From Polyangium fumosum (GTDB taxonomy: Bacteria > Myxococcota_A > Polyangia > Polyangiales > Polyangiaceae), in assembly GCF_005144585.1 (NCBI RefSeq), contig NZ_SSMQ01000028.1:1-64000 (forward strand): a stretch of DNA of 64,000 nucleotides, written 5' to 3'. A model generated the notes under the pieces. The model was not told where the DNA came from. It ran no database searches and was given only the letters and a program-made list of their open reading frames with translations. This document shows, in pieces, positions 2,397-8,285 of this stretch; position 1 is the stretch's first letter, and every line of letters starts with the position of its first letter. The translations under genes were made by a program, and so were the position numbers.

Positions 2397-4118
2397 TCAG
2401 CGCGGAATTTCGAGGAATGCCTTTGCGAGTTGCATCGCTCGCTCGGGGTCGACCATGTTCAGGTAGGCGATCTTCCCCTGCAGATACGCTTCGAAGTGGG
2501 GGATGTTCTCGCGGTTTTGCGCGGCGAGCCCGGTCTTCTTTGCGGCGTGCAGGATTGCGCGGAGCTTGCGGACCTCCTCGCGTGGCATCCCGAGTTTGTC
2601 GTTCACCACGATCCCGGTGACCTCTTGCCGCCCGCCTGCGTGCTGCACGCGCCCCTTCTTCGGGTTGATGGCAAACCCCTCCTCTTGCACGATGTGCCGC
2701 ACCCGCGCGAGCAGGATTCCGAGGTCGCCCCGACCCTTCTTCTGGCCGCCCTTGCCGTCGTCCACGACCTCGTTTGCCGCGGAGAATGTGAGGTCGTCTG
2801 CGTACCGCGTGTACGTCCAGCCCATCTTGCGCGTCATGCCTGTGAGACGCCGATCGAGCTTGCGCGCGACCAGGTTCGAGATTGCTGGGCTCGTGCATGC
2901 GCCTTGCGGCAATCCCCGCTCGCCCACGGCCACCCAGTATGTCGTCCCGTCGTACACGACCTTCCGGCGCGGCGACTCCGTGCAGAGCAGCGCGAAGATC
3001 GTGGCCACTGCGGGCGAGTACCCGATCGACTCGAAGAGCCCGCGCACGCGGCCGAACGTGATCGTCGGGAAGAAGTCCGAGAGATCGAGGTTCACCACGA
3101 TCCCGCGGCCGAGGTGGGCTCGCGCGTTCGTCACCGTCGAGCGGCCCTTCACGAACCCGTGTGCCTCGGCCTCGATCGAGAGCTTTGCGAGCACGTTCTG
3201 GAGGATCCACTGCTGCGCCTTCGAGAGCGCCTCGTGCGGCGCCGAGAGCAAGCGCATGCCGCCCGAGCGCTTGGGTACCTCGAAGTACACGTAATGCGGC
3301 TTCTCGACCGCGTCGTTGTGGTAGCAGAGCCAGCGCAGACGCGGGATCGGCAGGCCCAGCGCCTTCGCGACCTCCGCCGGCGTCGAGAGCAAGGGCAACC
3401 CCTGCTTCTGCAACGACTCGACGTTCGCGCGCCGATCGCCGAGGCTGCCGGACACGCCGCGGCCGAGGAAGATGATGTCTTCGGCGCGACGCTTGGCGAC
3501 GGCTTCCGCGTGCTTCTTCTTGCGCTCGGCCGCGAGGCGCTTCTTCTCCGCCTTGCGCTCGGCCTTCTGGCGGCGCAGCTCCTCGATCGCCTCGTCGGCC
3601 TTCTTCCGGGCCACGGTGGACGCCAGGCTCGTGGCCTCGTTGTGCTTGAGCCAGAGATCACCGACGCGGTGGATCTCCTCGATCTGCGCCTCCGTGAGCA
3701 AACCGCGCAGGATGAGGCCCCGATCGATCAGCGCCGTGCGCTCGTCGCTCTGCGGCGGGATCGTGTCCACGCGCCCGATCCACGCCGTCTGGTACGGGTT
3801 GATCTTGAGCGCGCGCTTGCGCATCTCGTCCGCCGACAACCCGAGGATCCCCGACGTGTCGTACGGGTCCTTCGGCTTCGGTTTGTCCTTCTTCTTCGCC
3901 GCAGGCGCGGGGCTCGTCGAGGTAAACGTCGCGACGGCGGTCGTCGCGCTCCCCGTCGCAGCTCCCGTCGTCGTCGACTTGGTCGACGATGACGATGAGG
4001 ACGAGGTCGTCGAAGCCGATGCCGCCTTCGGTTTGTCGTCCGGCTCGTTTTTCCCGGGCTCGCCCTCGCCGGGTTTGCCGGTGCCGATGAAGGACTTGAC
4101 TTTGTCCCAGAAGCCCAC
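2397..4118 (-). CDS. ret: Retron reverse transcriptase
   Basis: 573-residue reverse transcriptase that would copy the msd part of the adjacent non-coding RNA into msDNA. Palm motifs visible: NLDLSDFFP (about 343-351), GLPQGACTSPAISN (about 402-415) and the catalytic YADD (439-442). The two retron hallmarks are present: NARAH (331-335, the NAxxH motif) and VTG (500-502). The N-terminal 100 residues are Ser/Thr/Ala-rich and low in complexity, followed by a charged helical, probably coiled-coil stretch (about 165-210, alternating Lys/Arg/Glu). This N-terminal extension is typical of the larger myxobacterial retron RTs rather than the 300-residue E. coli ones. The start is GTG, with GGGAG about six bases upstream. 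The gene lies about 70 nt downstream of the msr-msd segment on the same strand. Confidence 0.95.
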   Translation of the reverse strand: MGFWDKVKSFIGTGKPGEGEPGKNEPDDKPKAASASTTSSSSSSSTKSTTTGAATGSATTAVATFTSTSPAPAAKKKDKPKPKDPYDTSGILGLSADEMRKRALKINPYQTAWIGRVDTIPPQSDERTALIDRGLILRGLLTEAQIEEIHRVGDLWLKHNEATSLASTVARKKADEAIEELRRQKAERKAEKKRLAAERKKKHAEAVAKRRAEDIIFLGRGVSGSLGDRRANVESLQKQGLPLLSTPAEVAKALGLPIPRLRWLCYHNDAVEKPHYVYFEVPKRSGGMRLLSAPHEALSKAQQWILQNVLAKLSIEAEAHGFVKGRSTVTNARAHLGRGIVVNLDLSDFFPTITFGRVRGLFESIGYSPAVATIFALLCTESPRRKVVYDGTTYWVAVGERGLPQGACTSPAISNLVARKLDRRLTGMTRKMGWTYTRYADDLTFSAANEVVDDGKGGQKKGRGDLGILLARVRHIVQEEGFAINPKKGRVQHAGGRQEVTGIVVNDKLGMPREEVRKLRAILHAAKKTGLAAQNRENIPHFEAYLQGKIAYLNMVDPERAMQLAKAFLEIPR

Positions 4119-4142
4119 GGCAACTCCCGCTAGATCGAGGTT

Positions 4143-4171
4143 GCGATGCGCATCGCCCGAGAGCTCGGGCG
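4143..4171 (-). other. Two short palindromes in the RT leader
   Basis: GCGATGCGCATCGC (4143-4156) is a perfect palindrome. It overlaps CGCCCGAG-AG-CTCGGGCG (4154-4171). Both sit between the 3' end of the retron RNA and the RT start, so they could form mutually exclusive leader hairpins that influence RT translation or processing of the RNA. This is inferred only from the sequence. Confidence 0.45.
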
Positions 4172-4188
4172 AGCGACCCTTGATGCAC

Positions 4189-4456
4189 CGTTCGACGCGC
4201 CGTCCAGCCCTCCAAGGAAGCCCGTCCGCCCGACTACTCGCCTAGGACCACGTCCGATCACCGAGGCCCTAGGCCCCCTACCGGCATCCAGACCCAAGGG
4301 TCCGCTGAGTGGATGCTGGTAGGGGGCTTTAGGGCCAAAAGAACATCGGGCGCGGGGACGCATGGGGGAACGAACTCCGCCACGGCGGAACGCCGCAGCA
4401 TGGTGGGCTCGGGCGGACGGACCTCCTTGCAAGGCTGGACGCGAGCGCGTCGAACG
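4189..4456 (-). ncRNA. msr-msd: Retron msr-msd non-coding RNA
   Basis: The segment between the SWIM-protein stop (4474) and the RT start (4118) is non-coding and highly structured. Its ends are long inverted repeats: 4409-4456 (a1 on the minus strand) and 4189-4233 (a2). About 40 positions pair, with a three-base offset. Next to a1 is a short msr-type hairpin (CGGCG/CGCCG, about 4383-4395). Next to a2 is a long hairpin, 4266-4290 pairing with 4310-4335 (about 24 bp), capped by GACCC-AA-GGGTC, which is the expected msd stem. The order a1-msr-msd-a2-RT is that of classical retrons. The priming G is probably just 3' of a1 (CGAGC context). Exact msDNA ends cannot be read from sequence alone. Confidence 0.9.
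4266..4335 (-). repeat. msd long hairpin of the retron
   Basis: A stem of about 24 bp with one or two mismatches and one bulge (arms containing GGCCCCCTACC and GGTAGGGGGC) encloses a 19-nt apex with its own 5-bp stem. It lies in the half of the non-coding RNA nearest a2, where the reverse-transcribed msd normally is, so the msDNA should end in this hairpin. Confidence 0.8.
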
Positions 4457-4473
4457 AGACGACAAGACCATTC

Positions 4474-6582
4474 CTACAACGACTTCCTACCCAGAAGCCA
4501 GGCCAGACAGAGGACGGATGCGCGCTCGGCGCGGAACCGATCCGCGACGCGCTTCACCTCGGCGAGCACGTCGGGCGGGAGCGCGAGCCGCTCCTCCACG
4601 GCGTCCGCCGGTACACGTGTGGCAAGGGAACGCGCGAGCGTGACATCCGCGAGCGCGAGCGCCGTGGTCCACGATCGCTCCGCCTGGATCCGCGGCATCG
4701 CCACGTCCCACGCCTCCTCCAGCACCCGCGACACCGTGGTGTTTTTCCGGTTCGCCACCTTGCGGATGTCGTCGAGGATCTGGCGGGGGATCGGGAAGCT
4801 CTCGCCCGACGACCACTTCGACGCCTTCGGCGCCTCGGGCGCGGGCTCGGGCTTCGGCGCCTGCGGCAGGGCGCGGCTCGAGAGCACCATCTTGAGCGCG
4901 AGCAAATGCCGGCAAGGCCCGGCCCGAAGGCCACTCTTGTAGAAGTACGAGCACGAGCACTTCGCCTTCTTGATCGCGAGGTCCTCGTCGAAGATCGCCT
5001 CGCACGCCGTGCCCTTCGCCTTGCCGACGACCGCGCGCCGGCCGTCGGAGAGGAGCTCGTCCCGATCGATCGTCACCGCGTTGCTCCGGGCCATCGCGCG
5101 GCCCTCGACGAGCTCCGGGTGCTCCGGCCCGAGGAAGGCCTCGCTCAGCACGGCGGGCATCACCTGCCGGTAGCGATACACCTGATCGGCGTGGTCGAAG
5201 ATGAGCTGTCCGCGCTTCGCGAGCAGGTGCAGCGCGGGCACGAGGCTCTCCTCGGACGCACCCGTCGCCGCGGCGATCGCGGGCAACGTCGCGCGCTGCT
5301 CGTTCTGGAGGAACCGATCCGCCTGCAGCATCGTGCGCGCATCCGGCTCGGTCGCGCCCGCGAGCAGGTCGAGCCCTGAGCCGCTCGTCCAGTCGTTGGT
5401 GGTCCACCCGCTCAGCGCGAGCACGAGCCGCATGTCGCCCATGTGCGCGATCCAGATGCTCGGCAGGCCCGATCCGAGCAGCCGCACCTCGACGCGATCC
5501 GTGAGCGGCAGGACGCGGGCGAGCGCGAAGAGCCGCCGCCGGCCCCAGATCTTGACCTCCTCGGTGATCTCGCGACCCGCGGGCGCCGAGCGATACGGGC
5601 CCAGCTTGCCGCCCGCGCTGCTCCCGCCGATCTCGAGCCCGCCGTCGTACACCGGCCCGCGCGACGGGATCTCGATCCCCCACGGATCGAGGATGATCTT
5701 CGGCGCCTTGCCCGGCGTGAGCACGAACCGGATGCTGCGCGGCCCGGTCTTCTCGCGGTGGCGCTTCAAATGCGCGAGGATCGCGTACACGACCTCGACG
5801 GGCAGATCCACGCGGCGGCTCGGCAGGCACGTCGAGGCCTGGATCTGACCGAATCCACGCAGCCACGAGGGCGGCAGATCGATCTTCTCTTCGCGGTAGT
5901 CCGCCACGCCCTCGACCTTCACGTCGAAGCCGGTCGGGTCCACGGACAGGCGCGTCTTCCGGTAGCTCCGCAGCGTCTGGAAATGCTCGTAGAGCGCGAT
6001 CGAGTAATCGACGTTCGTCGTGCCGAGCCCCGCCTCCTGCGCGCCCACGAACGAGTCGCGGTCCACGGACAAACAGCCGTAGCTCGACTCGTCCTTGGAG
6101 AAACACTCGAAGAAGACCACGTCGGGCGCGACGGTCACGACCGGGTCGCACGGCACGAGGTGGCGGAAGAGCTCCGGATCGTGCCGCGCCAGCTCGTTCG
6201 CCCACTTGACGCGCGCGTCCCAGTAGAGGCGATGCATCTTGCGGAAGTCGCGATCGAGGTTCGGCGGGATCGGCTCCTTCGCGAGCCGCGCGAGCTCGGC
6301 GCGCTTCGCCTGATCGAAGAGCTGCGCCTTGAGCTGCGCCTCGCGCTCTTCTTCGGCCTTCTTCCACGCCTGGTACGCGGTCTTGTCTTTCTTCCGGAAC
6401 TTGAGGTCGCCGACGACCACGTCGTGCAGCGCGCTCATGGCCTCGCGAAAGCGGATCGCGTCCTTGAGCTCGGCGTCGAAGAAGGTCTTCGGCCGCGCGA
6501 GGTTCGGGGAAAAACGCACGAGCAGGCTCTGCGCCGCCCCGAGCACGCCGCTCTTGCCCAGATAACGGAGGTCGACGTTCAC
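4474..6582 (-). CDS. Winged-helix / SWIM zinc-finger retron accessory protein
   Basis: 702-residue protein. A SWIM-type zinc finger is visible as C542-S-C544, then C557-R-H559 (CxCx(12)CxH). Before it, about 425-490, is a helical segment followed by a wing-like LIFDHADQVYRYRQ, consistent with a winged helix. The C-terminal 100 residues hold two similar helical segments (IPRQILDDIRKVAN and LPPDVLAEVKRVAD) resembling ribbon-helix-helix or antitoxin-type DNA-binding repeats. The start codon overlaps the stop of the upstream HEAT-like gene (ATGA), indicating translational coupling. The stop is only about 18 bases before the retron RNA arm. In retron classifications an ARM protein plus a WHSWIM protein define one retron type; I assign this role by that resemblance. 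A nucleic-acid-binding effector or regulator is inferred. Confidence 0.85.
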   Translation of the reverse strand: MNVDLRYLGKSGVLGAAQSLLVRFSPNLARPKTFFDAELKDAIRFREAMSALHDVVVGDLKFRKKDKTAYQAWKKAEEEREAQLKAQLFDQAKRAELARLAKEPIPPNLDRDFRKMHRLYWDARVKWANELARHDPELFRHLVPCDPVVTVAPDVVFFECFSKDESSYGCLSVDRDSFVGAQEAGLGTTNVDYSIALYEHFQTLRSYRKTRLSVDPTGFDVKVEGVADYREEKIDLPPSWLRGFGQIQASTCLPSRRVDLPVEVVYAILAHLKRHREKTGPRSIRFVLTPGKAPKIILDPWGIEIPSRGPVYDGGLEIGGSSAGGKLGPYRSAPAGREITEEVKIWGRRRLFALARVLPLTDRVEVRLLGSGLPSIWIAHMGDMRLVLALSGWTTNDWTSGSGLDLLAGATEPDARTMLQADRFLQNEQRATLPAIAAATGASEESLVPALHLLAKRGQLIFDHADQVYRYRQVMPAVLSEAFLGPEHPELVEGRAMARSNAVTIDRDELLSDGRRAVVGKAKGTACEAIFDEDLAIKKAKCSCSYFYKSGLRAGPCRHLLALKMVLSSRALPQAPKPEPAPEAPKASKWSSGESFPIPRQILDDIRKVANRKNTTVSRVLEEAWDVAMPRIQAERSWTTALALADVTLARSLATRVPADAVEERLALPPDVLAEVKRVADRFRAERASVLCLAWLLGRKSL

Positions 6583-8285
6583 GCCCTCTCCTCCTGGAAA
6601 AGCGAGAGCTCCGGCAACTTGCGCCCGATCGCGCTGCGAAGCGCCGGCGCCTGGAACGCCGCGCGCGAGACGGCCGCGAGCGCCGCGCGCCGCTCCGGCG
6701 GCCGCACGCTGCGCAGCGCATACCCGAGCAGCCCCACGAGCGGCTCCGCCTCGGCCGGATGTTCCACGATACGCGCCGCGATCTGCGAGAGCGCCGTGCG
6801 CTTCTGCTTCGAGCCGCGGTGCACCGCGAGGATCGTCGTCGCCCAGATCCGCTCGAGCGTCGCCGGACCGAGCGCCTTCTCCCGCTGCACGAGGTGCGCG
6901 AGCAAGAACGCGCGCACGTCGTCGTAGGGGCTCTCCGAGAGCGCCGACCAGAGCGCCGGATCATCCTTGAAGCGCACGTCGCGCTCGAAGAGCTGCAGGG
7001 CCTCGCGGCGCACGTCGTCGTAGCGCGCGTCCACGAGATCCCGGACGTGTGTCATGCGCGCCTCCTTGGCGGTCGAGAGGATCGACACGACCCACTTCGC
7101 CGCGGCCTCACGCACGCGCGGCGCGCGCGCCGTCGCGAGGCGCAACGTCGCCTCGATCGCCTTGATCCCAGCCGCCTTCTTGGTCATCGCCCAGTCGAGC
7201 CCGAGCTCGGCGACGGGCGCGACCGGCGAACACGCGAGGTCCACGCACTGATCGAGCGTGAGCCGCGCGGGCGAGACGTGCTTCTTGATGGCCTCGCAGA
7301 GGAAGCCGAGCGCCGTCGGGTTGTCGATCTGGAGCAGCTCCAGCCACTCGGCCACCGTGAGGCTCGAAATGCCCTCGGCCGTGCGCAGGAGATCGGCCGC
7401 GAAGATCTGCACCTCTTCGTTCGGGTTCGCGATGAGCGGGCGCAGGCGCGCCATCGTCAGCGCGCCGAGCTCACGCGCGTACCCGGCCTTGAGGAGCTCC
7501 ACCGCGAACACGCGCACCGTGCGGCCCTTCGCGCTCGTCACGAGCGCGAGCACGTCCTCGAAGCAGCCCTGCCACGCCTCGGGCCAGAGCGGCGCGGGGG
7601 CGAGCTCGGCGAGCGAGTGATCCTTCGCGACGCGGATGCCATCCGGGAGCCGATCGAGCGCGGCCGCGCCGTGGTAGAGCACGTGGAGCAAGCTCCACGC
7701 GTCGAGCAGGCGCTCGGGTTTGTCCAGATGATCGTCGCGGTAGAGCACGAGCGCCTTGCGGATCGCCTTGCCGTACCGGACGGGGTCCTTGCGCCCGACG
7801 TCGCGGAAGTAGCGCAGGACGCGGCGGCGCAGGTAGTTGCGCGTGGCCTTCGAGAAGTGCGGCGCGCTGTCGTTGCGGCCCCCGAAGTGGGCCGGGTGGT
7901 TGCCCGTGCCCACGAGGACACGCACCTTGCGCGACTGCTGGCTCGACCCGTCGTAGCGCGACTTCTCCACGAGCTTGCGCTGCACGAGCCTGTCGAAGGC
8001 GACCATGAAGTGGCCGAGGAGCTCGTCGTCGTGCGCCTTCTCGGCGAGCTTGAAGAGGCTCTTCACGAGCGGCCGGTGGTGCGGCCTGTCGCAGCCGTCG
8101 GCGATGTACGCGAGCAGCGTGCGGCGCGCGAAGGGCCGGCTGTCCTTGAGCCACCGTTCGGCGAGCGATTTGAGCTTCTTGCCGGCCGTGAGCGAGAGGA
8201 CCTCGTCGACGAAACGGTCGTCCCCCGACTCCCAGTATTCGTCGAGGAGCAGGTTCGATCCGGCCCTCGTGCGCGCGTTCGCCAT
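6579..8285 (-). CDS. HEAT/ARM-repeat-like retron accessory protein
   Basis: 568 residues and almost entirely predicted helical. It has repeated two-helix units such as the stretches around PNEEVQIFAADLLRTAEG, APRVREAAAKWVVSIL and YDDVRREALQLFER, the pattern of HEAT/ARM solenoids. It has no signal peptide or membrane segment, so it is cytoplasmic. It is the first gene of the minus-strand operon leading to the SWIM protein, the retron RNA and the RT. The ATG at 8285 (MANARTRAGS) is preferred over an upstream in-frame start at 8417, which would add a basic, shadow-like N-terminus. Solenoid proteins in retron systems are accessory components, possibly scaffolds for msDNA-protein complexes. The biochemical activity is unknown. 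Confidence 0.8.
   Translation of the reverse strand: MANARTRAGSNLLLDEYWESGDDRFVDEVLSLTAGKKLKSLAERWLKDSRPFARRTLLAYIADGCDRPHHRPLVKSLFKLAEKAHDDELLGHFMVAFDRLVQRKLVEKSRYDGSSQQSRKVRVLVGTGNHPAHFGGRNDSAPHFSKATRNYLRRRVLRYFRDVGRKDPVRYGKAIRKALVLYRDDHLDKPERLLDAWSLLHVLYHGAAALDRLPDGIRVAKDHSLAELAPAPLWPEAWQGCFEDVLALVTSAKGRTVRVFAVELLKAGYARELGALTMARLRPLIANPNEEVQIFAADLLRTAEGISSLTVAEWLELLQIDNPTALGFLCEAIKKHVSPARLTLDQCVDLACSPVAPVAELGLDWAMTKKAAGIKAIEATLRLATARAPRVREAAAKWVVSILSTAKEARMTHVRDLVDARYDDVRREALQLFERDVRFKDDPALWSALSESPYDDVRAFLLAHLVQREKALGPATLERIWATTILAVHRGSKQKRTALSQIAARIVEHPAEAEPLVGLLGYALRSVRPPERRAALAAVSRAAFQAPALRSAIGRKLPELSLFQEERA

Follow-up and report, generated by a model that had tools for sequence, protein, structure and literature searches.

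The window analysed here, a 64,000-nucleotide stretch of DNA from the soil bacterium Polyangium fumosum that forms part of contig 121 of the 12.98-Mb host genome, carries a type XIII retron, one partner protein of which is predicted from its structural model to contain a complete PCNA-type sliding clamp. The locus occupies positions 2397-8285 on the minus strand, as do all of its elements given below. In the direction of transcription it comprises a HEAT/ARM solenoid protein of 568 amino acids (aa; 6579..8285, ATG at 8285), a SWIM (WHSWIM) protein of 702 aa (4474..6582) whose GTG start lies over the HEAT stop codon, a non-coding RNA (ncRNA) of 239 nucleotides (nt) with the order a1-msr-msd-a2 (4202..4440), and a retron reverse transcriptase (RT) of 573 aa that also starts with GTG (2397..4118). 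As the best overall explanation, with a probability of roughly one half, we propose that the clamp-like SWIM protein is a DNA-binding effector which the retron restrains and which phage infection would release.

Assignment of the locus to type XIII is based on profile membership, gene order and the RNA. In PADLOC the RT scores best against RT_XIII (520.7 bits, runner-up RT_other with 355.2), a placement that reflects profile scores and not a phylogeny; it matches 57 PADLOC families, those among the 25 matches listed all being RT models, while a group II intron model reaches 52 bits, far below its cut-off of 300. Residues 1-569 of the SWIM protein cover positions 1-505 of the 509 in SWIM_XIII (560.6 bits) and the HEAT protein covers positions 2-561 of the 564 in HEAT-ARM_XIII (624.9 bits), so that all three proteins match the class that PADLOC-DB describes by RT_XIII, SWIM_XIII, HEAT-ARM_XIII and WGR_XIII, with the ncRNA between SWIM and RT. 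The RT combines an N-terminal extension with an RVT_1 core (PF00078) and the motifs NARAH, YADD and VTG; RVT_1 and the SWIM finger are all that Pfam recognizes in the locus proteins. A preliminary description, made from the sequence alone, had reported one minus-strand unit of HEAT gene, SWIM gene, RNA and RT, with NAxxH, YADD and VTG, and had placed it in type XIII, all of which is confirmed; the gene overlap that it gave as ATGA is actually GTGA (HEAT stop TGA; SWIM start GTG at 6582). Its interpretation is partly supported overall, and such a reading could not see the predicted clamp fold of the SWIM protein. Chance or artefact as the origin of the signal is ruled out by the PADLOC scores, the folding and covariation of the RNA and the linkage of RT and SWIM genes.

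The locus itself belongs to a published class; the features that appear new are the partner's clamp-like fold and variable tail, and relatives with several RNA cassettes. A literature search of partial coverage, which did not include the class-defining paper, returned nothing on the mechanism of type XIII, on multi-cassette retrons or on clamp folds among retron partners. We know of no published mechanism for type XIII retrons.

Folding of a 246-nt stretch around the RNA yields -156.9 kcal/mol (z -8.39), which none of 200 shuffled sequences equals. Based on fold and alignment, the a1 arm (4410..4440) pairs with the a2 arm (4202..4234) over about 30 nt, followed by the msr hairpin, the lower msd stem and the long msd hairpin. 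The branch guanosine is predicted at 4408, within a GAGC, by analogy with the motif types published in PMC6868368, and the msd, the template of the multicopy single-stranded DNA (msDNA), probably spans about 110 nt (4235..4350), its approximate ends being placed around the long hairpin (4264-4336) and the conserved lower stem. The RNA is near-identical in all six genus genomes examined, and since these copies offer so little variation, the structure was tested with distant relatives. In an alignment of six sequences, two of them from the genus, 41 of the 80 predicted pairs have changed on both sides with pairing kept in at least one sequence, in line with the a1-msr-msd-a2 RNA that the preliminary description had recognized.

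A covariance model built from these six aligned sequences (R1) was used in place of a loose regular expression, which proved uninformative. It finds one copy in the genome of P. fumosum and, among 40 loci of the phylum, 10 matches outside the genus and the training set (E <= 3.4e-6). In nine of these the RNA lies in the interval that separates the SWIM gene from the onset of RT homology; in the tenth, L056, the ncRNA (L056:6115-6384) sits downstream of the RT. Left uncounted were four antisense rows at genus loci (E 0.001-0.002), four weak rows at the loci of a second retron described below (L091, L094, L095, L096; E 0.018-0.25) and four at E 0.45-0.93. Of 80 named loci collected by means of the SWIM profile, 57 contain one or more R1 matches, and 16 of the other 23 also have no RT match in the examined DNA. 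Over Planctomycetota, R1 was found in 3 of 199 genomes, the centre genome among them, under stricter filters, so that this figure is not a frequency. Rfam 15 yields no family in the window at gathering cut-offs, and the RNA stretch matches nothing there but four low-scoring microRNA and small nucleolar RNA models. In several loci with HEAT proteins of about 2,100 aa, the SWIM and RT genes nearly touch or overlap, with no space for an RNA between them, and L112 has HEAT, SWIM and ncRNA with no RT match within 9 kb downstream.

According to PMC6868368, the Mx162 retron has a 241-nt transcript, against 239 nt here, and the RTs of Mx162, Sa163 and Mx65 have an extended N-terminus like that of the window's RT; the branch motif GAGC is that of Mx65, whereas Mx162 and Sa163 have CAGC. 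The preliminary description had grouped the class with the Mx162/Sa163-type myxobacterial retrons, which for this locus is tentative. A PADLOC-predicted type XIII retron in Variovorax is named in PMC11953036.

RT and SWIM genes are closely linked in Myxococcota. In a sample of 282 genomes of this phylum, with RTs counted from 450 bits against RT_XIII upwards and SWIM_XIII matches called strong at E < 1e-100, strong SWIM genes occur in 35 genomes. The preliminary description had considered that partners might be missing beside related RTs; for 34 of the 36 RTs a strong SWIM gene lies no more than 6 kb away, and the remaining two belong to genomes (G211, G061) with an unmatched SWIM gene at a contig end. 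Conversely, an RT accompanies 38 of the 44 strong SWIM genes; the six that lack one lie at the end of a contig or on one of 3.2 kb. A further 20 RTs were kept with lower scores (336-433 bits); SWIM is near four of them, and the 16 without it include the second retron of the window's genome. Across the 80 named SWIM loci an RT is matched in 58 (55 downstream of SWIM, three upstream) and a HEAT match ends at most 1.5 kb upstream of SWIM in 61. HEAT partners differ in size (568 aa in the window, about 900-1,100 aa or about 2,100 aa elsewhere), and the three examples tested match type XIII models. SWIM relatives with a nearby RT occur in Myxococcota, Planctomycetota, Verrucomicrobiota, Campylobacterota, the gammaproteobacterium Motilimonas and on a Methylobacterium plasmid. 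The last is the only one of three plasmid SWIM relatives with an RT matched beside it: at L210:8001-11334, in the unannotated Methylobacterium bullatum plasmid record NZ_LR743510.1, an RT 41% identical to that of the window lies just downstream of SWIM. Judged by these matches, type XIII is a widespread retron class.

The AlphaFold model of the SWIM protein points to a PCNA-like sliding clamp fold at residues 34-395 (5398..6483), into which a helical segment is inserted at about residues 58-146. Foldseek, with E 1.5e-8 for the clamp fold, returns 471 PDB matches at E <= 0.001, and the 50 matches listed are all sliding clamps. This is further supported by VIA-align, a re-examination of Foldseek's own matches, which superimposes 233 of 245 PCNA residues on model residues 35-395 (Z 19.3, root-mean-square deviation 2.8 Å) and gives Z >= 8 for 544 of 998 chains, the 50 matches listed all being PCNA or 9-1-1. 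In a library of viral structures, PCNA or DnaN make up most of the named rows among the matches listed. The order of strands and helices at residues 34-390 likewise fits what we take to be the pattern of two clamp domains with an insertion at about 58-146. Compared with PCNA, 9-1-1 and DnaN, the SWIM protein shows 9-14% identity among the matches listed, with no sequence relation detected, and it adds the helical insertion in domain I as well as a fused winged helix, SWIM finger and tail. SWIM residues 34-395 are predicted to form a complete PCNA-type sliding clamp.

The winged-helix region (residues about 400-475; 5158..5385) follows from the secondary structure of the model and from matches to DprA_WH in 4 of 32 homologues (best E 0.0013), other helix-turn-helix families being found there in single homologues each. 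The SWIM zinc finger (residues 536-564; 4891..4977) scores 20.2 bits against PF04434, with a cut-off of 19.6. In comparison with the type XIII profile, the protein has an additional C-terminal tail (residues 570-702), in which the model shows two strand-helix-helix units (4489..4803), with strand 594-599 and helices 600-613 and 617-633 in the first and strand 661-666 and helices 670-683 and 687-698 in the second. These units resemble ribbon-helix-helix domains: the tail reaches 16.4 bits against TIGR04563, under the cut-off of 65, and the RHH_1 cut-off is passed by the tail of the relative L104, not by those of the window or of L106. SWIM tails that we presume to be WGR-like were compared by eye.

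For the HEAT protein, AlphaFold gives a model with a predicted local distance difference test score (pLDDT) of 89.9, an alpha solenoid with a beta hairpin. Its fold matches are weak (PR65, SF3b and importin-type solenoids, TM-score at most 0.39 among the matches listed), and the 50 PDB matches listed contain only solenoid or repeat proteins and no enzyme; we predict that it serves as a scaffold. The RT begins with the peptide MGFWDKVKSFIG (4083..4118), an instance of a recurring aromatic, amphipathic motif and a candidate clamp-docking element. In its strict form the motif is found in 25 of 95 RT loci no more than 14 aa from an in-frame start, whereas 200 shuffles gave 0.36 on average and at most 3 of 95; this count is not a probability, because many rows are related and some loci are represented twice. 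The strict form is absent from the other 70 loci, many planctomycete and verrucomicrobial ones of which have a similar short hydrophobic N-terminus by eye. By eye, the N-terminus of the RT is a Ser/Thr-rich linker, where its type XIII relatives L051, L054, L057 and L058 have a longer segment of less biased composition. The hydrophobic spacing presumably resembles that of a PIP box, the peptide by which proteins bind PCNA. Docking of such a PIP-like peptide is a conjecture, plausible on condition that the SWIM protein next to it is a clamp; a helix that seeks membranes would have much the same appearance.

Antiphage defence is established for other characterised types of retron. From its predicted make-up of clamp, winged helix, SWIM finger and tail, the SWIM protein is most likely a DNA-binding effector, possibly in the form of a ring. 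In the explanation that we favour, the RT would copy the msd into a branched msDNA containing a long hairpin, as expected from its class. The SWIM protein, modelled as a PCNA-like clamp joined to a winged helix and a SWIM zinc finger, with a ribbon-helix-helix-like tail added in this genus, would be held inactive by the RT-msDNA complex together with the HEAT protein. The duplex of the msd hairpin could act as bait or plug, and the aromatic peptide at the RT N-terminus as docking element. A phage that degrades, coats or modifies the msDNA would free the clamp protein, which may then occupy replicating DNA or replication partners, so that replication stops and the infection ends. The clamp-like fold thereby turns two non-enzymatic partners into a concrete, testable hypothesis about replication.

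The window's locus has a single RNA cassette, while 10 of the 80 named loci, all in Planctomycetota (L115, L120, L127, L128, L131, L132, L134, L136, L142 and L155), have two or three, with three in the Gemmata sp. locus L120. The cassettes lie in the gap between HEAT and SWIM, in that between SWIM and RT, or in both. This count uses 69 of 74 R1 rows, five weak or cut-off ones being omitted (two in L115, one each in L108, L153 and L121). An a1/a2 stem of its own with at least 12 pairs is present in 21 of 22 cassettes, the exception being a truncated match in L128. Within a locus, identity ranges from 0.77 to 0.98 for the msr, from 0.04 to 0.74 for a1 and from 0.55 to 0.97 for the msd hairpin, the lowest values stemming from the truncated L128 match and from an L132 hairpin with unread bases. 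Such loci point to the msDNA hairpin as a bait that varies; if so, one immune complex would be served by several baits. The two cassettes of L155, with hairpins 97% alike, count against hairpins always diverging. In two searched genomes an extra R1 match lies on another contig (G287:C1 of L120; G289:C2 of L142). A bolder version of the proposal is tentative and in our judgement rather doubtful: type XIII would be a sliding-clamp retron, in which a PCNA-like ring or half-ring binds the msDNA hairpin, is docked through the PIP-like RT peptide and is released onto replicating DNA, with one RT serving two or three cassettes of different hairpins in some lineages.

Several observations weigh against a restrained clamp-like effector. 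The clamp fold depends on a single AlphaFold model whose confidence is middling (mean pLDDT 73.5), and at the level of sequence no clamp is matched in hmmsearch of PDB chains or in Pfam (E up to 10, 32 homologues), nor does an hhalign profile comparison with Myxococcota DnaN give a signal (DnaN profile of 11 of 14 rows). By eye, 6 of 40 phylum loci (L053, L055, L056, L064, L065 and L068) have other residues in place of the zinc ligands of the SWIM finger (for example CxC..CxH to DTS..SAP) with the rest of the domain kept, so that zinc binding is not universal in the class. The linkage figures show an RT-SWIM pairing that is tight in Myxococcota and looser elsewhere: 22 of the 80 named loci have no RT match, 13 with less than 4 kb examined downstream and nine with at least 4 kb (L110, L112, L113, L148, L158, L167, L174, L176 and L177, of which L112 keeps the RNA), and the cyanobacterial loci L174 and L177 have no RT within 9 kb on either side. 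Finally, a defence gene would not usually be fixed and syntenic across a genus, as this locus is.

SWIM relatives without an RT also indicate that the module works without one elsewhere. A Diaphorobacter protein annotated as 'SWIM zinc finger family protein' aligns over the window's clamp, winged helix and SWIM finger (profile comparison, 99.8% probability, E 3e-28). The next gene after the Diaphorobacter and Streptomyces plasmid SWIM genes encodes a large DUF6493 protein in both cases (L209:11752-18085 and L211:11764-16003), and, in contrast to the window, these loci have no RT annotated nearby or matched by the window's RT. The DUF6493 partner in Diaphorobacter has no sequence relation to the window's HEAT protein, and the pair may represent a non-retron clamp-SWIM system. 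It appears that an older clamp-SWIM module either acquired the RT and RNA or lost them. E. coli YehQ was rejected as a relative, sharing the SWIM zinc finger with just 24 columns aligned around the zinc ligands; the Yeh operon was likewise rejected as a source of SWIM and HEAT, YehI showing no relation to the HEAT protein.

The charge of the presumed DNA-facing helices, averaged over the 32 homologues, is basic in domain II (+2.69, +3.38), which fits a ring around DNA and the clamp-like effector, but not in domain I (-0.09, +0.72), which counts against them. The latter, together with the large helical insertion in domain I, favours an alternative in which the likeness to clamps is real and yet no ring forms, the SWIM protein being a monomeric platform for nucleic acids or proteins, as in non-ring processivity factors, with SWIM and HEAT only stabilising the RT-msDNA complex. 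The two-domain PCNA unit is however complete in the model, and we regard this alternative as possible though doubtful.

The main rival to a restrained effector against phage is a retron that has been domesticated, is passed on vertically and serves a housekeeping function in replication stress, DNA damage or development; the clamp-like protein would then work at damaged DNA or at the forks of the host, regulated by msDNA. The RT is present in 6 of 6 examined genus genomes, and the other five have HEAT and SWIM genes at 91-98% identity with the RT alongside and matching flanks on both sides; the SWIM protein of Polyangium sp. 6x1 (L099, the same locus as genus genome L087) is 97% identical to that of the window. 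Pairwise ratios of nonsynonymous to synonymous substitution rates (dN/dS) of 0.24-0.28 for HEAT, 0.07-0.20 for SWIM and 0.07-0.13 for the RT are like those of most neighbours (0.05-0.24 for three genes, 0.24-0.67 for one), so by its sequences the locus is under purifying selection, vertically inherited within the genus and kept. No defence gene was noticed by eye among the nearest neighbours, phage records contain no SWIM relative and viral contigs one partial match, and Mx162 and Sa163 are described as likely vertically inherited in PMC6868368. The wider distribution is patchy (strong SWIM_XIII in 35 of 282 Myxococcota genomes) and includes the Methylobacterium plasmid with its adjoining RT, both of which fit accessory immunity; an antiphage role is also established for other characterised retron types. 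We consider a housekeeping role unlikely here, while fixation across the genus raises the question whether some retrons turned to such roles.

It is improbable that the locus is a tripartite toxin-antitoxin retron of the classical kind, with a catalytic activity in HEAT or SWIM that sequence and fold comparison fail to show. Such a system would be in keeping with the toxic effectors established for characterised retrons and would account for invariant residues that the fold alone does not explain (D146, D154, E159, D164, Y168, N190, D192 and W240 in SWIM; D48, R50, K75, R149, R155, R158 and R161, all charged, in HEAT), yet the Pfam matches to nuclease-named families (PF10107, E 0.033; PF14411, E 0.37) are far from significant and occur in 1 of 32 homologues each, the large SWIM domain matches clamps, and besides the RT no enzyme family is seen in the locus proteins by Pfam or NCBIfam. 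The earlier statement that no obvious nuclease, NADase or pore former is encoded holds in Pfam, NCBIfam and fold comparisons, barring these single-member matches.

The genome of P. fumosum contains two further RTs. On the minus strand of contig 8, a second retron consists of an RT of 474 aa (L096:8147-9571) and an upstream RNA at about L096:9765-10142; the best PADLOC model is RT_XIII with 372 bits, and that locus has no SWIM or HEAT match. Its two msr-msd cassettes lie in tandem, nearly alike in the msr but different in the msd hairpin, and are present in 6 of 6 genus genomes. The third RT, on contig 55 (L097:6540-8814), has RT_VIII as best model and is convergent with a gene for a trypsin-like protease whose C-terminal half matches DUF3800_VII; among the five other genus genomes, the RT_XIII search listed only weak further matches (E ~3e-4), in two of them.

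Just downstream of the type XIII RT, the window contains four near-identical palindromes (AACTGCGC-3-GCGCAGTT) at 1552-1570, 1673-1691, 2155-2173 and 2276-2294, against 0.01 copies expected. Repeats akin to these lie at the same place in the genus relatives L087 and L088.

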